60,790 bases of DNA from a bacterium. Its GTDB lineage: Bacteria > Myxococcota_A > UBA9160 > UBA6930. The stretch is from assembly GCA_024228115.1 (NCBI GenBank), contig JAAETT010000073.1, forward strand, positions 1 to 60,790, written 5' to 3'. The translations under genes were made by a program, and so were the position numbers. Under the pieces are notes generated by a model, which had not been told where the DNA came from, made no database searches, and saw nothing but the letters and a program-made list of their open reading frames with translations. This document shows, in pieces, positions 1-60,666 of the stretch. Every line of letters starts with the position of its first letter. Within the stretch, counting starts at the first letter, position 1.

Positions 1-66
1 CACTACCTCGCGGCTCTCGATCGCGAACTCGACACCGATCCGACCGACACCGATTCGCCGTTCTGA
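1..66 (+). CDS. 3' end of an unidentified gene (partial)
   Basis: An open frame enters from the left edge and stops at TGA 64-66. It encodes 21 residues (HYLAALDRELDTDPTDTDSPF), acidic and rich in Asp-Thr, as a flexible C-terminal tail would be. The piece is too short to identify. The following 67-287 holds no gene I can support. It contains a 53-codon ATG frame at 101-262 starting MIRFLRF that lacks a clear ribosome binding site. Confidence 0.35.
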   Translation, partial: HYLAALDRELDTDPTDTDSPF

Positions 67-33759: not shown

Positions 33760-34973
33760 GGAGCGAGCATCACCGGCAGGTGCTGGAGGCCTTGCATCAA
33801 GCTCGAGTGAAGCGGCGTTGCGGGTGCCGTGGGCTCGAAGCGGGGCCAACGAGCGAGCAGCTCCTCGAACATCACACGCGCCTCGAGGCGGGCAAGCGGA
33901 GCACCGAGACAAAGGTGCTCGCCAAAGCCAAAGGCGATGTGACGCCGGGCATCGGCCCGGCGGATGTCGAAAGCCTCTGCATCGTCGCCGAAGACTTCCT
34001 CGTCCCTGTTCGCCGATGCATAGAAGAGCGCCACATAGTCGCCCTCACGGATCTTCTGGCCACGAAGCTCGGTGTCCTCGTTCACATGGCGAACGAAGCT
34101 GCGGACGGGAGACACCCAGCGCAGCATCTCCTCGACCGCATTCGGTATCAGCGAAGCGTCGGACGCCAGCGCATCGCGTTGATCTGGGTGCTGTGCGAGT
34201 GCGAGTGCGCCCCCCGAGATGAGATTTCGGGTGGTCTCGTTGCCCGCCACGAGTAGCGTGACGCAGAACATCCCCATCTCCGCGTCGGTGAGCCGCCGCC
34301 CGTCGATCTCGGAGGCCAGGAGGTGCGAAACCAGATCGTCTCGCGGCTCTCTCCGGCGTTCCGTGATGACTCCGCCGAGGTACGTGATCAACTCGCCCAT
34401 CACCCGCACATTGGCGGCAACCGTTTCGCCGCCACCCAGTTCGACCACTGCGTCGGACCAGCGCTTGAACTGGTCGGCGTCTTCAGGCGGCACACCCAGG
34501 AGCACGGCGATCACCTGCATGGGTAGAGGTACGGCGATCCGATCGACGAGATCGATCGGGCCGGCGGGGTCGATGGCGTCGAGAGATTGGCGGGCGACTT
34601 CGCGAATCCACGGCTCCATCCTCGCAACGCGCTGGGTCGTGAACTCGCCAATCACCAGCTTGCGGTGGATGTTGTGGGCCGGCGGGTCCATGCGGATGAT
34701 GGCCGGCGCGGCCCCGCCGCTCGCGTTGCCGAGGAGCTTCCCCCGGCGGGAAGGCAAGGCCTCGAAGAGCTGCGTGCCGCGTGCCGAGGAGAAGAGCCGC
34801 GGGTGGCGGGACACGTACTGGATGTCCGCATGGCGAGTTACGCAGAAGAAGCCGCCCGCCTCATGCCAGTGCACCGGGTCGTTGGCTCGGAGCTCCCGAA
34901 ACGCCGCGTGGGGATCGCCCCGGTACCAGTCTGCGTCTTCCGGGTGGAATGAGGGCGGGTGGTAGGGGCGCAT
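33756..34973 (-). CDS. Cytochrome P450
   Basis: A 405-residue soluble bacterial P450. The I-helix oxygen-activation motif is LLVAGNETTRNL, the ExxR motif EEMLRWVSPV, and the haem loop FGFGEHLCLGAPLARLE with the axial Cys. The layout and AGNETTRN resemble the CYP124/125/142 group, which oxidise methyl-branched lipids and the cholesterol side chain. The start at ATG 34973 has GGAGA upstream; a TTG at 35027 would place the N-terminus inside the operator region. The redox partners are not in the window. Confidence 0.95.
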   Translation of the reverse strand: MRPYHPPSFHPEDADWYRGDPHAAFRELRANDPVHWHEAGGFFCVTRHADIQYVSRHPRLFSSARGTQLFEALPSRRGKLLGNASGGAAPAIIRMDPPAHNIHRKLVIGEFTTQRVARMEPWIREVARQSLDAIDPAGPIDLVDRIAVPLPMQVIAVLLGVPPEDADQFKRWSDAVVELGGGETVAANVRVMGELITYLGGVITERRREPRDDLVSHLLASEIDGRRLTDAEMGMFCVTLLVAGNETTRNLISGGALALAQHPDQRDALASDASLIPNAVEEMLRWVSPVRSFVRHVNEDTELRGQKIREGDYVALFYASANRDEEVFGDDAEAFDIRRADARRHIAFGFGEHLCLGAPLARLEARVMFEELLARWPRFEPTAPATPLHSSLMQGLQHLPVMLAP

Positions 34974-44353: not shown

Positions 44354-45229
44354 ATGCGTTCCTGGGTTCTTCCGCTGCCGGCTCCTCCGGGGAGTGCACG
44401 TGTTTCCTTGCTCTCGCGCACGATCGACGCGCCTCTCGCGATGATTCTCCTGGCCGTCCTTCTATCGAGGGCCCAGCGGATCGCCGTTCGCGTGCCCGGA
44501 GCTTCAGGTGTTGAGTCTCTCGGCGACGTGCATCAGGTTGGGAAAGAGGCACGCTTCATCTCGGAGAAGTTTGCCGCCAGGGGCCGCATTCATGCAGAGC
44601 TCGCTCACGAGATCGGCAAGCCCCTGGGTGTGCTCGAGGTGCTTGCCTGCAAGCTTCGCGACGGGTCCATCGAGCCCGAGCGTCAGGCTGATGCGCACGC
44701 GTCGATGGCCCGTCTGGCGGGCCAGCTACGGGAACTCGTTCGGAGTGTGCTCGAGCAGGACCAGGAACCCGTCGCTTCGGATCCAGTCCATCTCGCAGAT
44801 TTGATCGAGAACGCACGACGCGAGGTCGAAGACGTGCACGGATCGGGCCGGGTCGTGGTCCATCCCTTGCCGCGCCTGCCTCATCTACCGATCGGTTCGG
44901 AACGCCTCGGCCGCGTCCTCGTCAATCTTCTCGACAACGCAATCGAAGCCGTCGACGACCTTCGGCCGGTCGAGCTGCGTGTTCTCTGCGTCAATCACAC
45001 GCTTCATCTCGAAGTCCGGGATGAGGGTGCCGGAATTCCCGGCGAGCACCTGCATCGCGTGATGGATCCGTTCGTGAGCTTTCGACACGGGGGCTCCGGG
45101 CTGGGCCTTTGGATCTCGCGGAAGATCGTCGCGGAGTTGGGCGGAAGTCTCGAGATCGAATCCGAGTCGGGCTGGGGAACGATTGCACGAGTCCGGATCC
45201 AATTCGCCGAGGCTGAGGCCGCGGCATGA
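44354..45229 (+). CDS. Sensor histidine kinase
   Basis: A 291-residue kinase. A short hydrophobic stretch (APLAMILLAVLLSRAQ) near residue 30 may anchor it. The H-box is AELAHEIGKPLGVLEV (about residue 83), the N-box NLLDNAIEA, G1 RDEGAGIP and G2 GGSGLGLWISRK. No PAS or sensor domain is evident, so the signal input is unclear. It overlaps the response regulator start by four bases. The precise start is uncertain because the only -10-like box (TAGAAT) lies just before the ATG. Confidence 0.9.
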   Translation: MRSWVLPLPAPPGSARVSLLSRTIDAPLAMILLAVLLSRAQRIAVRVPGASGVESLGDVHQVGKEARFISEKFAARGRIHAELAHEIGKPLGVLEVLACKLRDGSIEPERQADAHASMARLAGQLRELVRSVLEQDQEPVASDPVHLADLIENARREVEDVHGSGRVVVHPLPRLPHLPIGSERLGRVLVNLLDNAIEAVDDLRPVELRVLCVNHTLHLEVRDEGAGIPGEHLHRVMDPFVSFRHGGSGLGLWISRKIVAELGGSLEIESESGWGTIARVRIQFAEAEAAA

Positions 45230-46443
45230 ATCAGGTGATTTCGGTCCTGGTCGTGGACGATTGCCCCGAAGCGCTGGACTTGATTGCGGGAGAGTTCGCA
45301 ACGCCGGATTTTTCAGTGACGCGAGCTGCGGATGGGGCTGAGGCATGGCTCGCCTATCAACAGGAGAACCCGGACGTCATCGTCAGCGATGTGCGAATGC
45401 CCGAAGCTGACGGTTTCGACCTGCTCCGAAATATCCGATCCGCATCGAGCGTTCCCCTCGTGTTGTTGACGGCCTACGCGGAGGTTTCAGCGGCGGTTTC
45501 CGCGTTGCGAAGCGGGGCCGATGACTACCTTCGCTTTCCCGAAGATCTCGAAAGGCTTGAACCTCTTGTTCGCGGGCTCGTTCGGCGCAGGGGGCTGGCT
45601 CCGGGCGACGAGGCCGAGAGACTCTTGACGGGCCACTCGCGGGAGCTGGACGAGGTGCGCCAGGCCATCCGGATCCTGGCGCCGGTGGATGCGCCCGTAT
45701 TCGTAACGGGAGAAAAGGGGGTGGGGAGAGCCCGGATCGCGGAGGCGTTGCACTCTCTCTCGGGTTCCAGACATCCACTTCTAAGGGTCGACAAGGAAAC
45801 ACAGGGGCTCCCGGATGGACACGGAGCGATATTGCTATGCGACATCGATGCGTTTCCGGTTCCCGAGCAACGCCGTTGGTTCACCGAACTACACAGGATC
45901 CGGGGCCAGAGTTCCGATTTTTCCCGGATCTTGGCGACCGGGAGAGAGGGTGCCGGCACCGCGCAGGATGGGACCAGCCTCGATGCGCGTCTCTACAAGG
46001 AACTCAACACGCTTCGTATTCGTGTTCCAGCCCTGCGTGAACGGCCAGCCGACATCGAGGCCCTGGCTCACGAGTTGATGGCAGAAGCCGCTCAGAGCAT
46101 GGGCATCGAAGGCCATCGGCTCTCGGACGAGGCGATCCAAGCCCTCCTGGGGCAACCCTGGCCAGGGAACATCCGCGAGCTCAAGAACGTGCTGGAAAAA
46201 GCGCTGGCCTATGCCGGGGGGCGAGTCGTCTCTGGAGCGGCGATCCGGGAAGCCATCCGGGCGGTCGTCTGTCAGCAGCATGAAGGCCTCTTGCAGCGCC
46301 GGGCCGCACGGCATGCGGCAGAGCGAGACGAACTGGTCGATCTGCTCGATCAGTGTGGCGGAAACATGGCGGAGATGGCACGGCGTCTCGGGATGACACG
46401 GGGCGCCGTGGCCTATCGATTGAAGAAGCACGGGTTGGCCTAG
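45226..46443 (+). CDS. NtrC-family-like response regulator lacking GAFTGA and Walker Lys
   Basis: A 405-residue protein: receiver (residues 6-115), degenerate AAA+ domain (about 135-330) and Fis-type helix-turn-helix at the end (NMAEMARRLGMTRGAVAYRLKKHG). The receiver keeps D11, D12, D55 and T82, but the conserved Lys is Phe104 (DDYLRFPED). Walker A is GEKGVGRARIA, with Lys replaced by Arg. The usual ELFGHExGAFTGA block is missing and Walker B is LLCDID. PWPGNIRELKNVLEKAL is retained. It therefore probably does not activate sigma54 polymerase and may act as a DNA-binding repressor or sigma70 regulator, as proteins such as TyrR do. Confidence 0.88.
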   Translation: MNQVISVLVVDDCPEALDLIAGEFATPDFSVTRAADGAEAWLAYQQENPDVIVSDVRMPEADGFDLLRNIRSASSVPLVLLTAYAEVSAAVSALRSGADDYLRFPEDLERLEPLVRGLVRRRGLAPGDEAERLLTGHSRELDEVRQAIRILAPVDAPVFVTGEKGVGRARIAEALHSLSGSRHPLLRVDKETQGLPDGHGAILLCDIDAFPVPEQRRWFTELHRIRGQSSDFSRILATGREGAGTAQDGTSLDARLYKELNTLRIRVPALRERPADIEALAHELMAEAAQSMGIEGHRLSDEAIQALLGQPWPGNIRELKNVLEKALAYAGGRVVSGAAIREAIRAVVCQQHEGLLQRRAARHAAERDELVDLLDQCGGNMAEMARRLGMTRGAVAYRLKKHGLA

Positions 46444-46638
46444 TGTTCCGAGCAGTGCCGCTTTGGCGTTTTCTGTCGGAATCGGTGGCTTTCGAACCTT
46501 CCAGGGGACGCCATCAGCAGATTAGGCTCACCCGCATGACACGGCTGACGTCGTTTCGCATGCGACATACGGGATCAACCTGTCCCGTCGTTCTCTTGAT
46601 GGCAGGTTTCGCAGGGCCCGATGACAAGGAGTACGGAA

Positions 46639-47547
46639 ATGTCTCAGATCTCAGGTGAGCGAAGGCCGCCGAGTCCGCCCATGCGATCGTTTGGTGCTTC
46701 GTGTGGCTCGCATGAGCTCTTCGATCCCCTGGCGGGAGAGAGTCCGGCCATCGCGCGTGTGCGCGAGTGGCTGCGCGGCCTGGCCGCCCTGCGTGCACCC
46801 GTCTTGCTGCTCGGGGAGCCCGGAACCGGATGCCGAGCAGCCGCAAGGCGACTGCACTCCATGGGGCCGGAGCCCGATGCAGCGTTCGTCGTTGTAGCCG
46901 TAGAAAATGGTGATCCGGAAACGATTCCACTCCGCGGAACGATCCATCTGCTCGGGCTCGAGCGGTTGGCGCCCGACGGGCAGAAGCGGTGGCGCCGGTT
47001 CGTGGAGTCTTCCTCCAACGGGGCCCGCCTGATCGGTTCGGCGGACCCTCTGTTCCCGGATCAGATCGCTCGCGGTGAGTTCGATGCGGATCTTGGGCAG
47101 GCGCTGCAGCGCTTCGAGGTGCGTCTACCCGCCCTCCGGAACCGTCGGGCGGATCTTCCCGGGCTGACGGCAGGGATTCTCACATCGATCGGTCACGAAC
47201 TGGGTCGGTCGGATCGGCAGCTCACCCCGGGTGCTCTTCGTCGCCTGGCCCACGAGCGATGGCCGGGCAACTTGAACGAGTTGCGGCGCGTCATCGAGCG
47301 CCTGGTGGCGTATTCAGAGCATCCGCAGATCGGCCTGCCGGAGGTGGAAGCCGTGCTCGAAGAACTCCGCCCCTCCGTTGCTGATCTGCGCGCGCACCGC
47401 GAGCTGGAAGAGCGGGAAATGCTGATCCGAAACCTCCAGGAGACCGGCGGAAACGTCACGAATACCGCTGAGCGGATGCAGCGCAGCCGCGCGGCCATCT
47501 ACCGGCTGGTCGAGAAACATGGAATCGCGTTGCGGCGTGAGGGCTGA
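46639..47547 (+). CDS. Degenerate NtrC-like AAA+/Fis regulator without receiver
   Basis: A 302-residue protein with an excellent ribosome binding site (AAGGAG nine bases before the ATG). There is no receiver domain. Walker A is LLLGEPGTGCRAAAR, with Cys in place of Lys. GAFTGA is absent. Sensor and linker motifs (RLPALRNRRADLPGL, RWPGNLNELRRVIERLV) and the Fis-type helix-turn-helix (GGNVTNTAERMQRSRAAIYRLVEKHG) remain. It looks like a truncated paralog of the upstream response regulator, placed 195 bases downstream, and may modulate the same promoters by mixed oligomers. This is inference. Confidence 0.85.
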   Translation: MSQISGERRPPSPPMRSFGASCGSHELFDPLAGESPAIARVREWLRGLAALRAPVLLLGEPGTGCRAAARRLHSMGPEPDAAFVVVAVENGDPETIPLRGTIHLLGLERLAPDGQKRWRRFVESSSNGARLIGSADPLFPDQIARGEFDADLGQALQRFEVRLPALRNRRADLPGLTAGILTSIGHELGRSDRQLTPGALRRLAHERWPGNLNELRRVIERLVAYSEHPQIGLPEVEAVLEELRPSVADLRAHRELEEREMLIRNLQETGGNVTNTAERMQRSRAAIYRLVEKHGIALRREG

Positions 47548-47734: not shown

Positions 47735-47748
47735 TAGAACATGTTTCA
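47735..47748. promoter_or_regulatory. KstR-like operator candidate before the steroid operon
   Basis: TAGAACATGTTTCA fits TnnAACnnGTTnnA, the mycobacterial KstR consensus, around the perfect palindrome AACATGTT. It lies in an AT-rich spot 60 bases before the first acyl-CoA dehydrogenase start. The rest of 47548-47808 shows no gene I can support. A degenerate 14-base match can occur by chance. Confidence 0.45.
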
Positions 47749-47808: not shown

Positions 47809-48990
47809 ATGCACATCGATTTCACCCCCGAGCAGAAGGCCCTGCGCCAGGAGCTGCGGGCCTATTACGCCGGTCTTCTGCAAGGTGATCTGCGCCGGCG
47901 GCTGGATGAAGAATGGGACCTGCTCGGTGGGCCGGCGTTTCGTGAGGCCATGGGGCGGATGGGGAAGGACGGTTGGCTGGTGATCGGTTGGCCCGAAGAA
48001 TGGGGTGGCCAGGGCCGCGGGCATATCGAGCAATTCATCTTCTGGGATGAGACGTATCGCGCGCGCGCTCCGCTTCCGCTGATCACCGTCAACACGGTCG
48101 GGCCGATGCTGATGCAGCACGGTACGAAGGAGCAGCAGGACGCGCTGCTGCCGAAGATCCGCGACGGTGAGTTGATGGTTTCGATCGGCTACACGGAGCC
48201 GAATGCGGGGACCGATCTTGCGTCGTTGCAGACACGCGCCGTTAGGGATGGCGACGAGTGGGTGATCAACGGGCAGAAGGTCTACACGACCCACGCCCAC
48301 GATGCGGACTACGTATGGTTGGCCTGTCGCACGGATCCGGATGCACCGAAGCACAAGGGCATCTCGATCATCCTCGTGCCGACCACCGATCCCGGTTACA
48401 CGGCGACGCCGATCGAAACGATCGGTGGTGAGATCACCTACGCAACGTTCTACGAGAACATCCGCGTGCCTGTCTCGAATACGATCGGGCCTGAGAACGG
48501 CGGCTGGGGGTTGATCACCGGGCAGCTCAACCTGGAGCGCATCACCCTCGCCATGCCGGCCAGCCTCGACCGGCTGTTCGATGAGGTGTGGGCCTGGACG
48601 GAGAAGACGGAACGCCCGGGCGGTGGACGCATGCTCGACGAGCCGTGGGTGCAGCAGAGCCTGGCGAAGGTCTATGCCGAGGTCGAAGCGCTCAAGGTGA
48701 TGAACTGGCGTTCTGCCTGGCTGATCGATCAGGGAACACCAGGAATGGCGGAATCCTCGGCGGTCAAGGCCTTCGGCACCGAGATGGTGATCGATTGTTA
48801 CCGGTTGTTGCAAGAGATCACGGGCCAGGCTGGAATCGTGCGGCGCGGGGAAGGTGGAGCACTCTTCGGCGGGTTGCTCGAAAGCGCCTATCGAATGGCG
48901 ATGGTGAATACCTTCGGCGGCGGTGTGAACGAAGTGCAACGCGACATCATCGCGGCGGCCGGCCTCCAGATGCCCCGCGCCCGGCGTTAG
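47809..48990 (+). CDS. Acyl-CoA dehydrogenase, ChsE2/FadE29-like
   Basis: A 393-residue acyl-CoA dehydrogenase that closely resembles Mycobacterium FadE29 (ChsE2): IDFTPEQKALRQELR, GWPEEWGGQG, IGYTEPNAGTDLASL, NGQKVYTTHAHDADY, WLACRTDP, KHKGISIIL and the closing FGGGVNEVQRDIIAAAGL. ChsE2 pairs with ChsE1 to dehydrogenate the three-carbon steroid side-chain CoA thioester, using FAD. The pairing with the gene at 49990 supports this. The start is ATG 47809; a longer reading upstream is not needed. Confidence 0.9.
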   Translation: MHIDFTPEQKALRQELRAYYAGLLQGDLRRRLDEEWDLLGGPAFREAMGRMGKDGWLVIGWPEEWGGQGRGHIEQFIFWDETYRARAPLPLITVNTVGPMLMQHGTKEQQDALLPKIRDGELMVSIGYTEPNAGTDLASLQTRAVRDGDEWVINGQKVYTTHAHDADYVWLACRTDPDAPKHKGISIILVPTTDPGYTATPIETIGGEITYATFYENIRVPVSNTIGPENGGWGLITGQLNLERITLAMPASLDRLFDEVWAWTEKTERPGGGRMLDEPWVQQSLAKVYAEVEALKVMNWRSAWLIDQGTPGMAESSAVKAFGTEMVIDCYRLLQEITGQAGIVRRGEGGALFGGLLESAYRMAMVNTFGGGVNEVQRDIIAAAGLQMPRARR

Positions 48991-49008
48991 TCAGAAGGGA
49001 GAGACGAA

Positions 49009-49986
49009 ATGCCTCTGACCCCCGACCAGAAGAAAGAACTCGAAGCGAAGCTGAACGAGTTCGTGGGCAAGCCGATCGGTCCGCCCAAGACCGGCCGCGA
49101 TGCGGTGAACGAACCGATGATCCGGGCGTGGTGTGACGCGATGGGCGATACGAACGCCGCGTATCTCGAACCCAGTGCCGCAAAGGACTCGTGCCATGAA
49201 GGGATCGTCGCGCCGCCGACGATGCTCCAGGCATGGACGATGGACGGCTTCGAGATGCACGAGGGCTACGACGAGCCGACCAACGGTGTGCAGCGCATCC
49301 ACAAATTGCTGACGGATCATGGCTACACATCCGTCGTCGCGACGAATACCGAACAGGGATACACACGCTACCTGGAGCCGGGCGACGAAGTGACCGAGGA
49401 GACCGTGATCGAATCGGTTTCCGAAGAAAAGGCCACGGCGCTCGGAATCGGTTACTTCATCGACACGCGGTCGCGCTACACGGACCAGAACGGCGATGAA
49501 ATCGGCTGGCTGACGTTCCGCGTGCTCAAGTTCATCCCCGCTCAGCAGGCTGCGGCGGCCGATTCAGGCGAGACGGCAGCGGCCGCTGCGCCCGCGCGGA
49601 TCAAGGCGCCGATGGGCCACGACAATGCTCCATGGTGGAACGAAGTCGAGGCCGGGAAGATTCCCATCCAGACATGCAACCAATGCGGCAAGCTCTTTCA
49701 TCCGCCGCGCCCGATGTGCGGCGAGTGCGGTGCGATGGACATGGGTTACATCGCGGCCTCCGGGAAGGGCACGGTGCATACCTACACGGTGATGCACCAT
49801 CCCCAGTTCCCCGGCTATGACTTCCCGATCCTCGCAGTACTCATCGATCTGGAGGAAGGCACCCGGATCGTGTCGAATCTGCTCGGCTGCAAGCCCGAAG
49901 ACGTGCACATCGGAATGGCGGTCCAGGGCGCGGTAGAAGAGGGCGACGATGGCCTGAAGCTGCCCGTCTTCCGCCCGGCGGCCTGA
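49009..49986 (+). CDS. ChsH2-like MaoC-DUF35 hydratase subunit
   Basis: A 325-residue fusion: a MaoC/FAS1-like hot-dog domain (residues 1-180, with VNEPMIRAWCDAMGDTN and EGIVAPPTMLQAW), an Ala-rich linker, and a C-terminal DUF35 zinc ribbon and OB fold (CNQCGKLFHPPRPMCGECG near residue 223). This architecture is that of mycobacterial ChsH2. With ChsH1 it hydrates the unsaturated side-chain CoA ester, and its DUF35 domain also binds the aldolase Ltp2. ACAD genes lie on both sides. Confidence 0.9.
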   Translation: MPLTPDQKKELEAKLNEFVGKPIGPPKTGRDAVNEPMIRAWCDAMGDTNAAYLEPSAAKDSCHEGIVAPPTMLQAWTMDGFEMHEGYDEPTNGVQRIHKLLTDHGYTSVVATNTEQGYTRYLEPGDEVTEETVIESVSEEKATALGIGYFIDTRSRYTDQNGDEIGWLTFRVLKFIPAQQAAAADSGETAAAAAPARIKAPMGHDNAPWWNEVEAGKIPIQTCNQCGKLFHPPRPMCGECGAMDMGYIAASGKGTVHTYTVMHHPQFPGYDFPILAVLIDLEEGTRIVSNLLGCKPEDVHIGMAVQGAVEEGDDGLKLPVFRPAA

Positions 49987-49989
49987 ACC

Positions 49990-51135
49990 TTGGAGTTCAC
50001 GTTCACCGAAGAGCAGGAGACGGTTCGCGAGTTGGCTCGCGAGATCCTCGAGAAGGAAGCGTCCACGGATCGCGTCAAGCAGGCGTCGGCTAGCGAGTCT
50101 GCACAGGACGATGAGCTCTGGGCGAAACTGGCGGAGGCCAACCTGCTCGGTATCGCCATCCCCGAAGCCCACGGCGGCATGGGGATGGGATTCCTCGAAC
50201 TCTGCTGTCTGCTCGAAGAAGTGGGCCGGGTCGTTGCGCCGGTTCCTGCACTGGAGACGTTGGTGCTCGGTGCGTTGCCCATCGTTTCCTACGGCACCGC
50301 GGCGCAGCAGGCGGAGTGGTTGCCGCGCATCGCGGCCGGCAAGGCGCAGCTGGGCGCGGCCCTGCTCGACGCGGATTCGGCCGAGGTGGCAGCCCCGGCC
50401 ACGATCGCTCGAGCCGAGGGAGTCGATTTCGTTCTCGAAGGGCGCAAGTGCTTCGTGTCAGCCGCCTCCAGAGCTGATCGCATACTCGTGCCGGCTCGGT
50501 TGGAAGGAGCGGACGGCAAAGTCGCGATCTTCCTCGTCGATCCGAACGGACCGGGCGTGAAACTGTCCGGAAGTCGAATCTCGACCGGCGCCCTGCTCTT
50601 CGAGATGGAGCTCTCGGGCGTGAGAGTCGATGCAGACGAACGCCTCGGCGGTGAGGAAGCCGACGGTGAGAAGATCTTGACCTGGCTCCACGAGAGAGCG
50701 CTCGTCGCTACGGCGGCCATCCAGATTGGCGTTTCCGAACAGGCACTCGATATCACCGCCGGCTACACGCGCGAGCGCGAGCAATTCGGTGTTCCGATCG
50801 GAACCTTCCAGGCCGTCCAACACCGGGCTGCGGATTGTTTCATCGACGTGGAGGCCCTGCGTTGGTGCACCTGGCGAGCCGCATGGAAGCTCGCCGACGG
50901 TCAGCCGGCAGCACGCGATGCGGCGGTCGCGAAATACTGGGCCTCGGAAGCCGGTTCGAGGGTGGCCAAGGCCAGCGTCCATCTTCACGGCGGCATCGGC
51001 TCGGATGTGGACTACCCGATTCAGCGATATTTCCTGTGGGCGCGGGCCTTGGAGCTTCAACTCGGCTCGGCATCGCCGCAGCTCGCGTGGCTCGGTAGCG
51101 ATCTCGCCAGGACGAGACTGGAGGAATCCGTATGA
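49990..51135 (+). CDS. Acyl-CoA dehydrogenase, ChsE1/FadE28-like
   Basis: A 381-residue acyl-CoA dehydrogenase-like protein. It resembles FadE28 (ChsE1) in its divergent N-terminus, VGRVVAPVPALETLVLGALP, KQFGKP-like EREQFGVPIGTFQAVQHRAAD and the closing HLHGGIGSDVDYPIQRYF. It starts at TTG 49990, three bases after the previous stop. It should form the partner subunit of the 47809 gene product, as these ACADs are heterotetramers in steroid degradation. Confidence 0.88.
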   Translation: MEFTFTEEQETVRELAREILEKEASTDRVKQASASESAQDDELWAKLAEANLLGIAIPEAHGGMGMGFLELCCLLEEVGRVVAPVPALETLVLGALPIVSYGTAAQQAEWLPRIAAGKAQLGAALLDADSAEVAAPATIARAEGVDFVLEGRKCFVSAASRADRILVPARLEGADGKVAIFLVDPNGPGVKLSGSRISTGALLFEMELSGVRVDADERLGGEEADGEKILTWLHERALVATAAIQIGVSEQALDITAGYTREREQFGVPIGTFQAVQHRAADCFIDVEALRWCTWRAAWKLADGQPAARDAAVAKYWASEAGSRVAKASVHLHGGIGSDVDYPIQRYFLWARALELQLGSASPQLAWLGSDLARTRLEESV

Positions 51136-51551
51136 CGACTTCCCTCTCCCTTTCGGACGTCGGTGTGGGTGACGAGCTCCCCGCGCTGGACGTCCCGCTC
51201 ACGACGGCGGTCATCGTGGGCGGCGCGATCGCCTCCCGGGATTTCACGCCGGTCCACCACGATCGTTCAGCGGCCAATGCCCAGGGCCTGAATGACGTCT
51301 TCATGAACATCCTGACGACGAATGGCTACGTCGGGCGGTACGTCACGGATTGGGCGGGCGTCGATGCATGCATCAGAGGCCTGGCAATCAAGCTCGGCAC
51401 ACCCAACGTCGCAGGGGACACGATGAAGATGCGCGGCAAGGTGGTGGAGAAGGGGGACGACGGAACGATCGTCGTGGAAGTCGTTGGAAAGAACTCGTGG
51501 GGCAACCACGTTGAGGGCAAGGTGACCGTGGCCCTGCCTGCGGGAGCTTGA
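51132..51551 (+). CDS. ChsH1-like MaoC hydratase subunit
   Basis: A 139-residue single hot-dog domain protein of the MaoC-like type. FTPVHHDRSAANAQGLNDVFMN carries the hydratase Asp/His pair typical of R-hydratases. It matches ChsH1, the partner that supplies the active site in the ChsH1-ChsH2 enoyl-CoA hydratase of steroid side-chain degradation. Start ATG 51132 overlaps the upstream stop, and its stop overlaps the Ltp2-like start. Confidence 0.88.
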   Translation: MTTSLSLSDVGVGDELPALDVPLTTAVIVGGAIASRDFTPVHHDRSAANAQGLNDVFMNILTTNGYVGRYVTDWAGVDACIRGLAIKLGTPNVAGDTMKMRGKVVEKGDDGTIVVEVVGKNSWGNHVEGKVTVALPAGA

Positions 51552-52729
51552 GCATGGCGGGCACTCTTCACAATCAGGCCGCCATCGTGGGAATCGGCGA
51601 GACGAAGTACACGAAGAACTCCGGCGTTTCGGAGCTGGCATTGGCATCCGAGGCCGTCCGAAAGGCGATTCTCGATGCCGGCCTCCAGCCGAAAGATATC
51701 GACGGTCTCACCACCTTCATCCTCGATACCAACGATGAGGTCGAGGTGGCGCGTTCGGTAGGCTGCGGAGACATCACGTTCTTCAGCAAGATCGGCTACG
51801 GAGGTGGTGCAGCCATCGGCATCATCCACCAGGCGGTCATGGCCGTGGCGACCGGTGCGGCGAACTATGTCGTTGCCTATCGCGCGCTGAATGGACGATC
51901 GGGCCAGCGTTATAGCGATGGCGTCTCCGGGGACATCGTCACGACGGATCTCATCCACTGGAGCTGGTACATGCCATGGGGCCTGCTCACGCCGGCCAGC
52001 TGGGTGGCGATGTTCACCCAGCGCTACATGCATGATTTTGGAGCCAAGCCCGAAGATCTCGCCGAGGTGGCGATCGCCACGCGGGACCATGCGGTGAAGA
52101 ACCCCGCCGCGTTCTTTCATGAGCGTCCCCTCACGATGGACGAGTACATGAACGCGCGCTGGATCTGTGAGCCGTTGCGGCTCTACGATTGCTGCCAGGA
52201 AACCGATGGCGGCTGCGCCGTGGTCATCACGACCCCCGAGCGTGCGAAGGATCTGGCCCAGCCGGCGGCCGTCATCCGCGGCGTTGCCCAGGCCTCCGGC
52301 GACGACCAGGAACAGATGACGAGTTTCTATCGGCCGCAGATCTCCAACATCCCGGAGATGGAGCTGGTGGCAAAGCAGATGTACGGAATGGCGGGCCTCG
52401 GACCGGATGACATCGATGCGGCCATCATCTACGACGCCTTCACCTCGATCGTCTTGATGCAGCTCGAGAGCTTCGGTTTCTGCGGGCCCGGCGAGGCCAA
52501 GGATTTCGTGAAGGATGGCGCGCTGCGCGCAGATGGCGGCCGCCTGCCCACCAATACCCACGGTGGTCAGCTTTCCGAGGCCTACATCCATGGCGTCAAT
52601 GGCATCGTCGAAGGCACGCGCCTGATTCGTGGGACATCGACGAATCAGCCCGCCAAGAACGATCACGTGTTGGTGACTTCAGGAGTCGGAGTCCCCACGG
52701 CCGCAATGATCCTCGGCCAGCAGAGCTGA
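51548..52729 (+). CDS. Ltp2-like thiolase-fold steroid aldolase
   Basis: A 393-residue thiolase-superfamily protein very similar to mycobacterial Ltp2: QAAIVGIGETKYTKNSG, DGLTTFILDTNDEVEVAR, ITFFSKIGYGGGAA, ICEPLRLYDCCQETDGG, FGFCGPGEAKDFV and PTNTHGGQLSEAYIHG. Ltp2 is not a thiolase. With the ChsH2 DUF35 domain it cleaves the 17-hydroxy side-chain CoA by retro-aldol reaction, releasing propionyl-CoA and a 17-ketosteroid. Gene order beside ChsH1 supports the assignment. Confidence 0.92.
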   Translation: MSMAGTLHNQAAIVGIGETKYTKNSGVSELALASEAVRKAILDAGLQPKDIDGLTTFILDTNDEVEVARSVGCGDITFFSKIGYGGGAAIGIIHQAVMAVATGAANYVVAYRALNGRSGQRYSDGVSGDIVTTDLIHWSWYMPWGLLTPASWVAMFTQRYMHDFGAKPEDLAEVAIATRDHAVKNPAAFFHERPLTMDEYMNARWICEPLRLYDCCQETDGGCAVVITTPERAKDLAQPAAVIRGVAQASGDDQEQMTSFYRPQISNIPEMELVAKQMYGMAGLGPDDIDAAIIYDAFTSIVLMQLESFGFCGPGEAKDFVKDGALRADGGRLPTNTHGGQLSEAYIHGVNGIVEGTRLIRGTSTNQPAKNDHVLVTSGVGVPTAAMILGQQS

Positions 52730-52747
52730 GAAAAGGAGGTACTGCAG

Positions 52748-53929
52748 ATGCCGGAAGCCGTGATCGTCGAGGCGCTCCGCACGCCGATTGGCCGCGGAAA
52801 GATGGGCAAGGGTGATCTCTCGGGGCTGCATGCGGCCCAGTTGTTGGGGAAGGTGCAGCGTGGCCTGATCGACAAAGCGGGCATCGAGCCTGGCGACGTG
52901 GACCAGGTCATCGGCGGATGCGTCACCCAGGCGGGTGAGCAATCGAACAACATTGCCCGCCATGCCTGGCTTTCGATTTCGCCCGACGACTACTCGACCG
53001 CCGGCACCACGATCGACGTGCAATGTGGTTCGGGTCAGCAGGCGAACAACCTGGTGAGCGCCCTGGTCAAGACCGGTTCGATCGACATCGGCATTGCCTG
53101 TGGCGTCGAATTGATGAGCCATGTGGGCCTGGGCATGAACGTGATGAACGGCCCCGGTTTCTTTCTCCCCGAGGACTTTCCCTGGGAGGAGCCGATGTCC
53201 CAATTCATCGGTGTCGAACTCATCGCGGAGAAGTTCGGAATCACCCGGGACGAAACGGATGCTCTCGGCCTGCGCAGCCAGACCCTCGCCAAGCAGGCCT
53301 GGGACGAGGGACGTTTCGATCGGGAGATTCTTCCCGTCGAAGCTCCGGTGCTAGGTGATGATGGTGCGCCGACCGGTGAGATGAAACAGGTCAGCCGAGA
53401 TCAAGGCCTGCGCGACACGACCCTCGAAGGCCTCGCGGCCTTGAAGCCAGTCCAAGAGGGCGGTGTCCACACGGCGGGAACCTCTTCCCAGGTATCGGAC
53501 GGCGCAGCGGGCCTTCTCTACATGACCGCGGAACGCGCGAAGGAGTTGGGGCTTCGGCCGCGGGCGCGGATCGTCCATGAGGTGGTCACTGGTTGCGACC
53601 CGTCGACCCTCCTGGAGGGACCGATCGATGCAACGCACAAGATCCTGAAGCGCTCCGGGGTCTCGCTCACGGATATCGATCTCTTCGAATGCAACGAAGC
53701 GTTCGCGGGCGTGATGCTTGCGTGGCTGAAGAGCTTCCCCCAGATCGACGCGGACAAGGTCAACGTGAACGGTGGAGCGATCGCATTGGGCCACCCTGTC
53801 GGATGCACGGGTTCTCGTTTGCTGGTCACGGCCCTTCATGAGCTGGAACGTCAGGACAAGAGCACGGCCTTCATCACCATGTGCTGCGGCTCCGCTGTCG
53901 GTACCGCCACGATCATCGAGCGCATCTAA
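52748..53929 (+). CDS. FadA5-like thiolase
   Basis: A 393-residue thiolase. VIVEALRTPIGR and TTIDVQCGSGQQANNL hold the nucleophilic Cys, NVNGGAIALGHPVGCTGSRL the catalytic His and GHP motif, and MCCGSAVGTATIIERI the second Cys region. Near-identical wording to mycobacterial FadA5 (GGCVTQAGEQSNNIARHAWL, EGGVHTAGTSSQVSDGAA) suggests steroid side-chain thiolysis. The start has a strong AAAGGAGGT seven bases upstream, indicating high translation. Confidence 0.93.
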   Translation: MPEAVIVEALRTPIGRGKMGKGDLSGLHAAQLLGKVQRGLIDKAGIEPGDVDQVIGGCVTQAGEQSNNIARHAWLSISPDDYSTAGTTIDVQCGSGQQANNLVSALVKTGSIDIGIACGVELMSHVGLGMNVMNGPGFFLPEDFPWEEPMSQFIGVELIAEKFGITRDETDALGLRSQTLAKQAWDEGRFDREILPVEAPVLGDDGAPTGEMKQVSRDQGLRDTTLEGLAALKPVQEGGVHTAGTSSQVSDGAAGLLYMTAERAKELGLRPRARIVHEVVTGCDPSTLLEGPIDATHKILKRSGVSLTDIDLFECNEAFAGVMLAWLKSFPQIDADKVNVNGGAIALGHPVGCTGSRLLVTALHELERQDKSTAFITMCCGSAVGTATIIERI

Positions 53930-53965: not shown

Positions 53966-54886
53966 ATGGGAATTCTCGACGGGAAAGTCGCCATCGTGAC
54001 GGGCGCAGGCCAGGGCCTCGGACGGATCGAAGCCCTGGAGCTGGCGCGTCATGGCGCCAGCGTGGTCGTCAACGATCTCGGTACCCAGGCCGATGGCTCG
54101 GGCACGAGTGAAGAGCCGGCCCAGGCCGTGGTCCAGGAAATCGAAGCCCTCGGCGCCAAGGCGGTCGCGGCTTTCGGCGATGTCGCCAACTGGGAGGACG
54201 CCGAACGCGTCGTTCGCACGGCCGTCGATACCTTCGGCGATCTGAACATCATGGTGAACAATGCGGGCTTCTCCCGCGACGGCATGATCGTGAAGATGAC
54301 CGAAGAAATGTGGGACTCGGTGATCCGGGTTCACATGAAGGGCCACTTCGCGATGATCCGGCACACCATGGCCTACTGGCGTGAGAAGTCGAAAGCCGAA
54401 GGGGGGGATCCGCTCTACGGACGACTCATCAGCACGGCATCGGATTCCTTCTTGATGGGCAACGTGGGCCAGCCCAACTACGCCGCGGCCAAGGCCGGGA
54501 TCACCTATCTCACGATGTCCGCGGCGCGTGAATGCCAGCGCTTCGGCGCGACAGCGAATGTCGTGCTTCCCCGGGCCCGAACGCGGATGACCATGAGCGG
54601 GCCGTGGGCCGGGATCTTCGGAAAGCCCGAGGAAGGCTTCGATACCTTCGCTCCAGAGCACATCGGGCCGCTCATCGCATGGATCGCGTCGCCTCAGGCC
54701 GCACACGTCTCCGGCCAGGTCTTGCAACTCTGGGGCAAGCACATTCGTGTCTACGAGCGCCCCCAGGCGGCGCTCGATCACGAGAATGAAGCCCCGTGGA
54801 GCGTCGACGAACTGGACAAGGTGCTCGGTAGCTTCTTCGAGGGGAAGAAACCCGTCGAGGATGGCTTCGCGCTGCCCATGGCGTAA
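53966..54886 (+). CDS. SDR family oxidoreductase, 3-hydroxyacyl-CoA/17beta-HSD type
   Basis: A 306-residue SDR. VTGAGQGLGR is the cofactor loop, NNAGFSRDG the active-site lead, and STASDSF followed by YAAAK are the catalytic Ser, Tyr and Lys. It resembles peroxisomal multifunctional enzyme type 2/17beta-HSD4-like and mycobacterial ChsB1-type dehydrogenases, which oxidise 3-hydroxyacyl-CoA side chains. The insertion AYWREKSKAEGGDPLYGR is typical of the group. The function follows from gene context. Confidence 0.85.
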   Translation: MGILDGKVAIVTGAGQGLGRIEALELARHGASVVVNDLGTQADGSGTSEEPAQAVVQEIEALGAKAVAAFGDVANWEDAERVVRTAVDTFGDLNIMVNNAGFSRDGMIVKMTEEMWDSVIRVHMKGHFAMIRHTMAYWREKSKAEGGDPLYGRLISTASDSFLMGNVGQPNYAAAKAGITYLTMSAARECQRFGATANVVLPRARTRMTMSGPWAGIFGKPEEGFDTFAPEHIGPLIAWIASPQAAHVSGQVLQLWGKHIRVYERPQAALDHENEAPWSVDELDKVLGSFFEGKKPVEDGFALPMA

Positions 54887-54890
54887 GACC

Positions 54891-55916
54891 GTGCGCGTCT
54901 ACGCGTCGGTGGACGATATCCACCTGCCGCTTGCCGACTACCCGGCTCATGCGCAGCGCGCAGAACGTCTGGGCTTCGATGGCTTGATCATCCCCGAAGC
55001 GGTGAACGACGCCATTCTGGGTTCGCTCCTGGCATTGGAACACACGGAACGGATCCATGTGCTCACCGGCGTCGTGGTCGCGTTCGCGCGCAGCCCGATG
55101 CTCCTGGCCCAGGATGCCTGGAGTCTCGCCAGGATGAGTGGGGGTCGTTTCGGTATCGGTCTCGGCCCCCAGGTCCGGGGCAATGTCGAAAAACGCTTCG
55201 GCATGCCCTGGTCGGCGCCGGCCGCGCGCATGCGCGACTACGTCGGGGCCCTGCGCGCCATCTTCGAGTGTTGGCAGAACGGTACGCCGCTCCGCTACGA
55301 GAGCGAGAGCTACACGCTGACCAGGATGCAACCCTTCTTCAGTCCTGGCCCGATCGACCACCCGGACCTCCCGATCATGTTGGGTGCGATCGGGCCCAAG
55401 ATGACCACTGTGGCGGGAGAGGTCGCCAACAAGGTCATCGCACATCCCACGAACTCGAGCCCTGGCTATCTACGCGACGTCATGGGAAGCATGCTCGAAG
55501 GGGGCGCGCACGCTGGGGACCGAGATGTCGGCGAGATCGAGGTCATCGCGAATCCGATGACGGCCACGGGGCCGGACATGGCGGCTGTCTCCGCGGAGCG
55601 TGAGGCCGCTCGCGAGATCCTGGCGTTCACCTACTCGACGCCTGCCTACTGGGCCACGCTCGAGCACCACGGCTGGGGCGAGGTCGGGCGCACGCTGCTC
55701 GAGAAGACGCGCAAGGGCGACTGGGCCGGAATGTCCAGCTTGATCAACGACGAGATGCTCGATGTGCTGGTGCCGTCCGCAGCCTATGACGACATCGCCG
55801 GGGAACTGGCGAGCCGCTACGCCGGCGTGGCTTCCGCGATCAGCCTCCGTATGCCGAAGGATCCCGATGACGACGGGCGCTACGGGGAGGTCGTCGCTGC
55901 CCTGCGCTCCAGCTAG
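54891..55916 (+). CDS. LLM class flavin/F420-dependent oxidoreductase
   Basis: A 341-residue luciferase-like monooxygenase-fold protein (TIM barrel). It starts at GTG 54891, just after the SDR stop, giving RVYASVDDIHLPLADYPAHAQRAE. It keeps family strings such as DGLIIPEAVNDA, GRFGIGLGPQVRGNVEKRFG and LPIMLGAIGPKM. It resembles the MSMEG_2256-type F420-dependent group. Whether the host makes F420 cannot be seen. It is likely part of the steroid or lipid operon. Confidence 0.85.
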   Translation: MRVYASVDDIHLPLADYPAHAQRAERLGFDGLIIPEAVNDAILGSLLALEHTERIHVLTGVVVAFARSPMLLAQDAWSLARMSGGRFGIGLGPQVRGNVEKRFGMPWSAPAARMRDYVGALRAIFECWQNGTPLRYESESYTLTRMQPFFSPGPIDHPDLPIMLGAIGPKMTTVAGEVANKVIAHPTNSSPGYLRDVMGSMLEGGAHAGDRDVGEIEVIANPMTATGPDMAAVSAEREAAREILAFTYSTPAYWATLEHHGWGEVGRTLLEKTRKGDWAGMSSLINDEMLDVLVPSAAYDDIAGELASRYAGVASAISLRMPKDPDDDGRYGEVVAALRSS

Positions 55917-56028: not shown

Positions 56029-57240
56029 ATGGGCAGCTGGCTTCGTCACCATTTCTCTCGGCGTCCGCATTGGATGAATGCACTGATGCTGTTCTGCGCC
56101 TTCATGGCGCTGGTCTACATGCCATGGGATCTCTTCATCAAGCCGATCGCGGCGGACGAGGAAGTCTGGTTCGGCGTGCGTTTTCATGGGCTCTGGGCAA
56201 AAGCCCTGGAGATTCCCCATTGGTTCGTCTACGCGGCCGGCATGATCGGCTTCTGGCGATTGCATTCCTGGATGTGGCCCTGGGCGGCCGTCTACGCGGG
56301 CCAGGTCGTCGTTTCGATGCTGATCTGGCCGATGCTGTACACGGAAGCCGAAGGCGCGTGGGTCGTCGGGCTGCTTGCGGGTGCGTTCTTCATGCTTCCG
56401 ACGATCGCCCTGTGGAACGCGCGGGAGCTCTTCCAGGGCGAGACGAGTGGGCCACTGAGTGAGCGCTACGGCGGATGGGCGATCATCACCGGTGCTTCCG
56501 CTGGAATCGGTGCCGAGTTTGCCAGGGCGTTGGCCCGCGAAGGGTTTTCCTGTGTGCTCGCGGCTCGTCGGGAAGATCGCCTCAAGGAACTCGCCGAACA
56601 GCTCACACGCGAGCACGGCGTAGACGTCCGCACGGTTCCGGTCGATCTCGCTACCGCAACCGGTGTCGAATTGTTGCTCTCGCAGGTCGCCGATCTCGAG
56701 ATCGGCATGCTCGTGAACAACGCGGGTGTGGGTTATTCCGGCCGCTTCGACAAACAGGATCGGGATCGGCTGGCCCAGATGGTTCAGCTCAACTGTGCGG
56801 CGCCCGTCGCGCTGACGGCAGAGCTGCTTCCGGGAATGCGCGAGCGGGGGCGGGGCGCCGTGATCTTCACCGGGTCGGTCGCCGGTTCTCAGCCGCTCCC
56901 GCTGCATGCGCTCTACAGCGCAACGAAGAGCTTCGACAATCTGCTGGCGGAAGGCTTGTGGGGAGAGCTGCGCGGTACCGGAGTCGACGTGCTCGCGCTG
57001 CTGCCCGGCTCGACCGAGAGCGAGTTCATGGAGGTGGCGGGCGAGATCCCGCACGCCGGAGAGCCCGCCGCCCACGTGGTCGAGGTGGCGCTCGATGCGC
57101 TCGGCCATCAACCCTCTGTCATTTCGGGTTGGTTCAACTGGCTGCGGGCGAACGCAGCATTCCGGATCATGCCGCGCAGTTGGTTGGCGATGGTCGCGAA
57201 GGACGTCATGGAGAAGCAGACGCCGGAGGACATGCGCTAG
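56029..57240 (+). CDS. SDR fused to N-terminal four-helix membrane domain
   Basis: A 403-residue protein. Residues 1-135 form about four hydrophobic segments (ALMLFCAFMALVYMPWD, WFVYAAGMIGFWRL, WAAVYAGQVVVSMLIWPM and VVGLLAGAFFMLPTIALW). Residues 148-390 form a classical SDR: ITGASAGIGAEFA, NNAGVGYSG, TGSVAGS and YSATK. It resembles 17beta-HSD12/3-ketoacyl reductases with an added membrane domain, which would place catalysis at the membrane on a hydrophobic substrate. ATG 56029 is the first good start; a cysteine-rich or lipid-binding site is not visible. Confidence 0.85.
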   Translation: MGSWLRHHFSRRPHWMNALMLFCAFMALVYMPWDLFIKPIAADEEVWFGVRFHGLWAKALEIPHWFVYAAGMIGFWRLHSWMWPWAAVYAGQVVVSMLIWPMLYTEAEGAWVVGLLAGAFFMLPTIALWNARELFQGETSGPLSERYGGWAIITGASAGIGAEFARALAREGFSCVLAARREDRLKELAEQLTREHGVDVRTVPVDLATATGVELLLSQVADLEIGMLVNNAGVGYSGRFDKQDRDRLAQMVQLNCAAPVALTAELLPGMRERGRGAVIFTGSVAGSQPLPLHALYSATKSFDNLLAEGLWGELRGTGVDVLALLPGSTESEFMEVAGEIPHAGEPAAHVVEVALDALGHQPSVISGWFNWLRANAAFRIMPRSWLAMVAKDVMEKQTPEDMR

Positions 57241-58617: not shown

Positions 58618-60666
58618 TCAACTCCTTCGGCGGCGCTGGCGCCAGAGGAATTGGAGAGGTGTCAGCAGCAGGGCGACCTCGAATCCGAGGCCGCAGATCC
58701 GCGCCTTCTCGCTGTTGCGCAGGGGAATGGTGCATTCGGGATCGGGGAGCCCCCCCCCGAGACCACCGTCCCAATCGATCTTTCCGTCACCGTCACCGTC
58801 ACCGTCATCGTCGAGGTCGTTGTCGCACCGGGTGCCTTCCAGGTTCCCCTGTGGAGCGAAGCAGCCCGGGTCCAGGGGGTAGTCGGCGACTCCATCGCTG
58901 TCGTTGTCCACGCCATCGTCGCAGACCAGAGATACCGCGCGCTCGGAGACGTCCGTCGCATCGTCGCATCCGGGATCGTCCGGGTAGTCCGCGAGTCCGT
59001 CACCATCGTTGTCGATACCGTCGCCGCAGGCCGGTCCCTTCACGATCCGGAACCGGTCCCGGACGGTACTCGCGTCGTCGATGAAAGTGGCGTCGAGTTG
59101 GTGGCCGTCTACGTCGACCACCAGGGAGCCGAGTTCGTTGAGTGAGATCTCCATTATGGGGTGGTTCAGCGATCCCCCGCTGATCTTCGACGAGCTTCCC
59201 ACCACCGCGTAGACCGCGCCTTCGCCCGGTGCCATTCCCAGCGTCGCCTTCTGATAGGCGCCATCGCCGCTCGGATCGCCGTCCCCCCCGTCGATGAGAC
59301 ACTCCCCGCCGGCGCACTCACTCGAGAGACCGTAGTGGCCATCGATCAGCATCGAACGTTCGTAGGAGTGGCTATGACCGGTGAGCTGCAGGTCGACGCC
59401 GTAGTACTCGAGCACCGGGAGGAAGTGCTCCCTCATGTCGCACATTCGCCCGCCGGAGTCGCTGCAGCTGTCCGAGTTGTGCGAACCCCTGGTATAGGGC
59501 GGGTGGTGCCAGAATGCGATCACGAAGTCCCTGTCCGTCGCGGCCAGGTCCGCGCAGAGCCACTGGTACATAGCGCCACCCTCCCCGGGTGGGCAGATGT
59601 TCGTCTCGGGGTTGGCGGGGGCCGACCGATCGGTGTCGTGAGAATCGAGAGAGACGAAGTGGATGTTGCCGTAGTCGAAGGAGTAATAGGCCTCCGTGAG
59701 GCTCGCGACGCCGCCGGCCTCTCCCAGGATCGGCATGCTGAAGGAGTCGTAATACGGGCCGGATTCGGTGGGTGAGTCGGACGAGTAGAACTCGTGGTTG
59801 CCCGGCGTGGGCCAGATCACCGTGTTGCGCATCACCTCGGGGTATACGTCGAAGAATCCCGCCGTGTACTCCTCGTCCGTCCCGCTGTCGTAGGCGTTGT
59901 CTCCGAGCAGCAGCCAGACATCGGCGAAGTTGCCGCCTGCGAAATTGAGGTACGCGTCGCGCACATTTCCCGCGTCCGTGCACCCCTGAGCGGAGACGGC
60001 GCACTCGCCAGAGTCACCGATCACCCACACGCGGACCGATGGGCGCGTTCCCGGCGTCGGCTGGGTCCTGAAATAGTGATCAGAATCGTCCCCCGCCCAA
60101 GTCTCGGTGGTCGTTCCCACGGAGTAGTAGTATGTGGTTCCCGGGAGCAGCCCCGAGATCACGACCTCGTGTTCGGTAGTAGGCGTGGGATTGGTGACGG
60201 AACTGGTGAGACTTCCTGGGGCCGGGCCGTAGGCGACGTGGCTTCCGAGAGGGAGGGTGGTCCGCCATCGCACCACGACGCTGCTGGTCGTGCTGTTGTG
60301 GAGATAGGGCGCTCGCGCCAGTGGGGGGACAGCGGGTCCCGTTTGCAAATCCAGGTCGAAGCTGATGTCGGAGCTGGTGGCATTCGCCTGGTGGATCTCG
60401 ACGGCCAGAACGTTGTCGCCGGGGACGAGAAACGAGGCGGGTACCCCCTGTTGGTTGAAACTGGTCTCTCCGGAGCCCCCTACGGCGCTGGAGGCATGGC
60501 TGAGGTGGTTGATCGTCCCGGTCGGCATGTTGGAGCGGAACACCTCGGTGCCGTTCAGGTAGGCGACGGCACCGTCATCGCGCTGCACCGAGAGAATCAG
60601 TCCGTCGATGGAGCCGGGGTCGGCGACGCTGAACACGTGGCGGAAATAGCTGGTGTAGACGCTCAC
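58618..60666 (-). CDS. Metallophosphoesterase with Ca-binding repeats and C-terminal sorting signal, 5' truncated
   Basis: A 682-residue protein starting at GTG 60666, with a TGA just before it in the same frame. It has no signal peptide. The first residues (TSYFRHVFSVADPGSIDGLILSV, RDDGAVAYLNGTEVFRSNMP) are the middle of a beta-sandwich domain normally preceded by about 60 more residues. A fibronectin-like domain and a purple-acid-phosphatase-type catalytic domain follow (LLLGDNAYDSG, TPGNHEFYS, AFWHHPPYTRG, LTGHSHSYERS). Next are Asp-rich DxDxDG repeats (CDDGVDNDSDGVADYPLDPGC). The end is CGLGFEVALLLTPLQFLWRQRRRRS: Cys-Gly, hydrophobic stretch and Arg cluster, a sorting signal. Confidence 0.85.
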   Translation of the reverse strand: MSVYTSYFRHVFSVADPGSIDGLILSVQRDDGAVAYLNGTEVFRSNMPTGTINHLSHASSAVGGSGETSFNQQGVPASFLVPGDNVLAVEIHQANATSSDISFDLDLQTGPAVPPLARAPYLHNSTTSSVVVRWRTTLPLGSHVAYGPAPGSLTSSVTNPTPTTEHEVVISGLLPGTTYYYSVGTTTETWAGDDSDHYFRTQPTPGTRPSVRVWVIGDSGECAVSAQGCTDAGNVRDAYLNFAGGNFADVWLLLGDNAYDSGTDEEYTAGFFDVYPEVMRNTVIWPTPGNHEFYSSDSPTESGPYYDSFSMPILGEAGGVASLTEAYYSFDYGNIHFVSLDSHDTDRSAPANPETNICPPGEGGAMYQWLCADLAATDRDFVIAFWHHPPYTRGSHNSDSCSDSGGRMCDMREHFLPVLEYYGVDLQLTGHSHSYERSMLIDGHYGLSSECAGGECLIDGGDGDPSGDGAYQKATLGMAPGEGAVYAVVGSSSKISGGSLNHPIMEISLNELGSLVVDVDGHQLDATFIDDASTVRDRFRIVKGPACGDGIDNDGDGLADYPDDPGCDDATDVSERAVSLVCDDGVDNDSDGVADYPLDPGCFAPQGNLEGTRCDNDLDDDGDGDGDGKIDWDGGLGGGLPDPECTIPLRNSEKARICGLGFEVALLLTPLQFLWRQRRRRS

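Follow-up and report, generated by a model that had tools for sequence, protein, structure and literature searches.

A likely KstR/igr-type sterol catabolic system in an uncultured Myxococcota lineage and its candidate oxygen-independent ring-opening route

The genome of an uncultured bacterium assigned to Myxococcota (assembly GCA_024228115.1) carries, on contig JAAETT010000073.1, a compact set of genes at 47809-53929 that an earlier note on this DNA had read as an igr-type steroid side-chain degradation operon. Analysis of the whole 60,790-nt stretch (the window) and of related genomes upheld this reading and extended it, and we consider it likely, with a probability of roughly 0.7, that the operon is part of a sterol catabolic system of the KstR/igr type, linked to a route for activation and ring opening that probably needs no oxygen. 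The new element is the combination of a regulon of mycobacterial type with a ring route resembling that of Sterolibacterium. The genome (G000; 6.4 Mb, 97% complete) comprises 700 contigs, the window being C73, and its nearest named relatives are metagenome-assembled genomes labelled Deltaproteobacteria or Myxococcota, one Candidatus Binatia and one closed chromosome (CP070734.1). All are uncultured assemblies, and outside the window the start of each gene was set by a simple open reading frame (ORF) caller.

Six ORFs were confirmed in the operon, all on the same strand and separated by 18, 3, -4, -4 and 18 bp (two 4-bp overlaps); with spacing this close, a single transcript is likely. The conserved strings quoted in the earlier note are present, domain models and PDB matches agree gene by gene, and for each ORF the best solved-structure match was the steroid-specific counterpart, by a wide margin over the next relative:

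47735-47748, no strand: putative KstR-type operator TAGAACATGTTTCA, fitting TNNAACNNGTTNNA, 61 bp before the ChsE2 ATG
47809-48990, plus strand: ChsE2/FadE29-type acyl-CoA dehydrogenase (ACAD) subunit; Tcur3483 429 bits, 4x28_A 420, next unrelated 132
49009-49986, plus strand: ChsH2-type MaoC-DUF35 fusion, predicted hydratase partner and Ltp2 docking domain; 4wnb/4w78 and 6ok1_B
49990-51135, plus strand: ChsE1/FadE28-type ACAD subunit; Tcur3481 272 bits, 4x28_D 216, next unrelated 156
51132-51551, plus strand: ChsH1-type MaoC hydratase subunit; 4wnb_B 107 bits, next unrelated 40
51548-52729, plus strand: Ltp2-type retro-aldolase; 6ok1_A 501 bits, next unrelated 179
52748-53929, plus strand: FadA5-type steroid 3-ketoacyl-CoA thiolase; 4ubv 465 bits, next unrelated 249

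Family models and retained motifs pointed the same way. Ltp2 scored 598 bits against NF005892/PRK07855 (cut-off 469) and FadA5 588 bits against NF005889, "steroid 3-ketoacyl-CoA thiolase" (cut-off 515), with the thiolase catalytic motifs CGSGQQ, GHP and MC retained in alignment with 4ubv. ChsH2 matched FAS1_DH_region, zf-ChsH2 and OB_ChsH2_C; its MaoC part gave 119 bits to 4wnb/4w78 (the hydratase domain of Mycobacterium tuberculosis ChsH2) and its second half 111 bits to 6ok1_B (the DUF35 domain of T. curvata ChsH2, crystallised with Ltp2), while ChsH1 retains the RDFxxVHHDR stretch of its M. tuberculosis counterpart. The earlier note had allowed that generic MaoC, DUF35 or thiolase families might match better; steroid ChsE, ChsH, Ltp2 and FadA5 proteins came out on top. 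ChsE1-ChsE2, ChsH1-ChsH2 and Ltp2, the set expected of an igr operon, are encoded together, and no P450, and hence no Cyp125 within the operon, was found among the genes tested at 44-58 kb. The order ChsE2-ChsH2-ChsE1-ChsH1-Ltp2-FadA5-SDR (SDR, short-chain dehydrogenase/reductase) is kept in most of about 20 related genomes and is thus not due to chance. It is highly probable that these genes form a side-chain module of the KstR/igr type whose substrate is a steroid C22-CoA.

In a maximum-likelihood tree of 47 sequences, the Ltp2 proteins of the Myxococcota clade (20 rows, support 99/98) form the sister group of the classical Ltp2s, TcLtp2 among them (8 rows, 99/95), and the joint node is supported at 100/99, which bears out the placement among steroid enzymes that the earlier note proposed. 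The catalytic residues of TcLtp2, Tyr294 and Tyr344 (PMC12329534), are retained in all 20 clade members, and the YDHF motif of the eight classical members has become YDAF in 20/20. Among the positions that cleanly separate the two groups, His296 to Ala and Gly341 to Ser are absolute in both, position 341 lying three residues before Tyr344. Since replacement of His296 in TcLtp2 lowered efficiency 14-fold (PMC12329534), a variant and not a dead enzyme is likely; in our reading, Ser341 or backbone groups may take the place of His296 in the oxyanion hole. YDHF is retained in the second Ltp2 copy of locus L027 and in a paralogue on contig C688 of the window's own genome, where a second igr-like set near the contig end (L064, 599-9562) comprises ACAD, ACAD, a FabK/IpdC-like protein, MaoC, MaoC and the Ltp2-like protein. 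Across 379 genomes sampled from the window's phylum, 72 had an Ltp2 orthologue: 68 belong to the same order, for which 80 genomes were listed, and 4 to the rest of the class, for which 11 were, with none found outside the class. This distribution is close to a lineage trait, not scattered acquisition.

The sequence TAGAACATGTTTCA upstream of ChsE2 matches the KstR motif TNNAACNNGTTNNA (PMC1995591) and is nearly identical to mycobacterial KstR sites such as ACTAGAACATGTTACA. A box lies within 222 bp upstream of the ChsE2 start codon in 11 of 13 orthologous operons with differing flanking DNA, and 0.155 matches per 60.8-kb window are expected by chance; a second match in the window, at 35822, was rejected because it falls within a desaturase-like coding sequence. 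Close variants of the form TAGAAC(A/G)(C/T)GTTTCA occur three times in the genome: before ChsE2, in a TetR gene's own promoter (C572:335) and between divergent ACAD genes (C238:2470), where the box flanks a FadE26/27-like pair. The C572 TetR protein (358-1005) has KstR as its sole NCBIfam match (NF033703, E 2e-31), and its operon encodes two DUF35 proteins, homologues of Ltp3 (PRK07937, 537 > 419) and Ltp4 (PRK08313, 657 > 514) and an ACAD. An EchA19-like gene lies close by, and operons of this type with the box were also found in two relatives. This KstR-like repressor probably controls the side-chain operon through the putative operator at 47735.

Module counts were taken over 17 related genomes, closed chromosome included. 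The earlier note saw ring-degradation genes missing from the window and pointed to the rest of the genome. A KstD is encoded at C135:26590-28245, and its best PDB match (576 bits, versus 294 for Rhodococcus KstD) is 7P18, which is AcmB of the anaerobic cholesterol degrader Sterolibacterium denitrificans (PMC9736390); the three active-site tyrosines (Tyr118, Tyr363 and Tyr536) are retained. Contig C353 carries an operon for HIP (methylhexahydroindanedione propanoate), that is, for the last two rings, C and D, with the order ipdA-ipdB-ipdC-echA20-fadE-fadE-fadA6 and an ipdF-type SDR; its IpdA gave 351 bits to 6co6 versus 91 for the next match, and IpdA is present in 15/17 genomes. We think it quite likely that the organism degrades sterols through HIP. 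No KstR2 box was found before the ipd operon; a conserved palindrome upstream of ipdA, AACGATACGTATCGTT (L140 12490-12745, L143 4639-4900), is unlike the mycobacterial KstR2 box and is probably a further operator of TetR type, serving the HIP operon.

At 48-52 kb of C135, adjoining molybdenum (Mo) hydroxylase genes, lies a xanthine-oxidase-family trio of Mo, flavin (FAD) and iron-sulphur subunits, a candidate relative of AtcABC, the 1-testosterone hydratase/dehydrogenase. Ten of the 17 genomes encode its large subunit, and these are precisely the ones with the AcmB-type KstD, the two genes sharing a contig in five; the odds of this coincidence are 1 in 19,448 if the two were independent and without correction for kinship. 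Degenerate atcA primers with a reported product of 1173 bp (PMC5554518) fit the large subunits with 0-2 mismatches (reverse) and 4-5 (forward) and a product of 1173 bp; for the trio on C135 the mismatches are 1 and 4 with the same product size. The fit is better than in six controls, of which just one gives a product this long, with 3 and 7 mismatches.

Steroid C25 dehydrogenase (S25DH) belongs to a subclass with ethylbenzene dehydrogenase (EBDH) that numbers eight paralogues in S. denitrificans (PMC6016249). The window's genome has complete operons for Mo hydroxylases of this EBDH/S25DH subclass, with alpha, beta and gamma subunits and chaperone (beta 529 > 480.7; chaperone 159 > 152.3; gamma of the EB_dh family). 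The genome encodes five alpha subunits, the best PDB match is EbdA, and full-length S25DH-like alphas were found in 9/17 genomes, with about ten on the closed chromosome. The alpha on C471 (L108 7654-10596, beta and gamma genes alongside) shares 51% identity with EbdA, clusters with it and possibly belongs to an alkylbenzene or other hydrocarbon hydroxylase; those on C135 and C10 are 32-37% identical and form other branches, so that not all need act on steroids.

From these genes a pathway can be proposed. FadA5 would thiolyse the C24 3-ketoacyl-CoA, ChsE1-ChsE2 would desaturate the resulting C22 steroid-CoA with its propanoyl side chain, and ChsH1-ChsH2 would hydrate the product at C17, after which Ltp2, docked to ChsH2 through the latter's DUF35 domain, would release propionyl-CoA and leave a 17-ketosteroid. 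The KstR-like TetR would also control its own Ltp3/Ltp4/FadE operon and the FadE26/27-like pair. Upstream, side-chain hydroxylation would most likely fall to the EBDH/S25DH-type Mo hydroxylases, and the side-chain products would feed the AcmB-type KstD and the full HIP operon. The A-ring would be opened by the AtcABC-like Mo enzyme, in an oxygen-independent 2,3-seco-like route in place of KshA and HsaC. For the oxygen independence of activation and ring opening taken by itself, we put the chances somewhat above even. A broader proposal, for which the odds fall just short of even, is that the whole uncultured, Myxococcota-assigned class may mineralise sterols without oxygenases, by means of a KstR-controlled side-chain module, an Ltp2 with a rebuilt oxyanion hole, many Mo hydroxylases, AcmB-type KstD, AtcABC-like opening and HIP.

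The principal rival is aerobic sterol degradation, in which the igr chemistry would be the same, Rieske proteins resembling KshA, together with a ring-cleaving dioxygenase not recognised as such, would open the rings, and the Mo enzymes would serve other hydrocarbons, as the affinity of the C471 alpha to EbdA might suggest. All 17 genomes encode KshA-like Rieske proteins (82-150 bits to KshA_C), one of those in the window's genome being closest in the PDB to KshA (130 bits), which leaves room for an oxygen-dependent route. In L015 and L020 the operon has P450 genes nearby. However, the two KshA-like genes of this genome adjoin amidohydrolase-like genes and also match the model of SdmA, a sterol C4-demethylase, their products appearing intermediate between KshA and SdmA, and for these reasons we did not accept the KshA_C matches as proof of an aerobic route. 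Pairs of a KshA/SdmA-like Rieske oxygenase and an amidohydrolase-like protein were seen at L010 1114-3330 and L011 247-2442. The search of the genome for ring genes yielded the AcmB-type KstD and KshA-like proteins, whereas HsaC (the 9,10-seco/TesB-type extradiol dioxygenase, and the one of HsaA-D searched for) was not found, the best score with the HsaC model being 23 bits; that candidate, at C326, was rejected as closer to HpaD. No convincing HsaC was found in 16/17 genomes, among them the closed chromosome, and the search had an internal positive in G003 (295 bits). This genome (that of L015; L039, L051, L058) encodes three HsaC-like proteins, one of them on a 72349-bp contig, the same size as its igr contig. 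It lacks both S25DH-like alphas and an AcmB-type KstD and could represent an aerobic 9,10-seco variant inside the same lineage. Together with the anaerobic type of the KstD and its perfect co-occurrence with the AtcA-like enzyme, the missing HsaC makes the aerobic alternative rather unlikely.

Several further observations weigh against a KstR-controlled, oxygen-independent sterol system. Taken as a whole, the KstR-box pattern shows no enrichment in the genome, with 11 sites against 10 in the control, and the KstR-like TetR (109 bits) and the KstD (616) fall below their NCBIfam cut-offs (280 for NF033703; 789 for the KstD equivalog). Seven of the 17 genomes have neither AcmB-type KstD nor AtcA-like enzyme, eight have no full-length S25DH-like alphas, and the oxyanion-hole His296 of Ltp2 is lost. 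Family, subunit make-up, primer sites and context are what suggest the S25DH and AtcA identities, and the case as a whole is built from the genes of uncultured genomes.

Two other substrates were weighed. C30 hopanoic acyl-CoA and C22 steroid acyl-CoA carry the same CH(CH3)-CO group on a five-membered ring, and by this chemical analogy the same enzymes could convert the former to trisnorhopan-21-one and propionyl-CoA, an option already raised in the earlier note and one that the altered Ltp2 active site throughout the clade might accommodate. The steroid-specific KstD and HIP operon in the same genome, and the KstR box and KstR-like repressor that tie the operon to a sterol-type regulon, now make it very unlikely. 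Alternatively, the five-gene set might act in a different aldol cleavage. This may be its role in Novosphingobium sp. ES2-1, whose ChsE2-ChsH2-ChsE1-ChsH1-Ltp2 set (L036) is on a conjugative plasmid (NZ_CP063448.1) near genes for extradiol-dioxygenase-like (VOC) proteins and an indolepyruvate oxidoreductase. That set has no adjacent FadA5, whereas here FadA5 is the fixed next gene and the KstR-type regulon contains side-chain genes, and we regard this alternative as scarcely probable. A fish-associated Vibrio alfacsensis plasmid (L037) holds a ChsH2-ACAD-ChsH1-Ltp2 set with many ACADs; both plasmid sets share the genes and a similar order with the operon but differ in an Ltp2 of 51-55% identity with YDHF and in the absence of an adjacent FadA5.

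The system proposed here, a sterol side-chain module with a probably oxygen-independent ring route, combines features of several known ones. With the M. tuberculosis igr operon (Rv3540c-Rv3545c) and KstR regulon it shares orthologues of ChsE1, ChsE2, ChsH1, ChsH2 and Ltp2, FadA5, the KstR-type operator, a putatively autoregulated KstR-like TetR and Ltp3/Ltp4 and FadE26/27-like genes under the same box, but the operon has no Cyp125, includes FadA5 and an SDR, encodes an Ltp2 with YDAF instead of YDHF and stands in a different phylum without HsaC. The oxygen-independent route of S. denitrificans (AcmB, S25DH1-4, S26DH, AtcABC) is matched by the KstD with AcmB as closest solved structure, by several complete hydroxylase operons of the Mo type II dimethyl sulphoxide reductase family, by the candidate AtcABC-like xanthine-oxidase-family enzyme and by the HIP operon, whereas the route here is deduced from genes, the host is not a denitrifying betaproteobacterium and a KstR-type regulon is added. 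The proteobacterial bile-acid enzymes (Shy, Sal; Ltp2 and ChsH1/H2 of Comamonas testosteroni) share the logic of a MaoC-DUF35 hydratase with a thiolase-fold aldolase; Sal cleaves C5 side chains with Tyr302/Cys304 and forms a separate clade (PMC12329534).

Surveys place 9,10-seco steroid degraders only in Actinobacteria and Proteobacteria (PMC5790920), and relatives of a delta24-desaturase in Deltaproteobacteria were noted in a BLAST remark (PMC11061730). Among the open-licence papers searched, no report of this system in Myxococcota was found. The lineage is a third one with the side-chain module, here as an order-wide trait, and its operator matches the mycobacterial KstR box across phyla. 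To our knowledge, the oxygen-free sterol route rests on a few denitrifying Proteobacteria; in about half of the genomes checked here, the side-chain module is paired with oxygen-independent modules. If the proposal is true, a whole overlooked bacterial class may digest sterols and constitute a large uncultured sterol sink in low-oxygen habitats, the origin of the KstR/igr system would become a testable phylogenetic question, and many new candidates for Mo steroid hydroxylases would be at hand, with a bearing on the reading of sterol biomarkers.

Downstream of FadA5, the operon continues as follows:

53966-54886, plus strand: SDR, PRK07791/PRK07792-like, conserved final gene of the core operon by domain models and synteny
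54885-55916 (start codon approximate), plus strand: F420-dependent oxidoreductase of the luciferase-like monooxygenase (LLM) class, TIGR03617 328.5 > 278.15
56032-57240, plus strand: membrane-anchored SDR by domain models and synteny, retained downstream by the closest relatives, its membership being less secure

The LLM gene follows the SDR immediately in L012, L013 and L018 as well, and this conserved order supports the extension of the operon by both genes, as had been suggested. The further suggestion that the P450 and TetR genes at 33172-34973 belong to it did not hold, as the P450 (33756-35027) resembles CYP119-type models, is 13 kb distant and is not matched by a syntenic gene in related loci. 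Just upstream of the operon (44354-47547) are genes for a histidine kinase, a sigma-54-type response regulator and a second sigma-54 activator, which are kept in L012, L013 and L028; a search for a sigma-54 (-24/-12) promoter prompted by these conserved activators gave nothing above background. At the contig end, on the minus strand (58618-60666), lies a gene for a purple-acid-phosphatase-like metallophosphoesterase.

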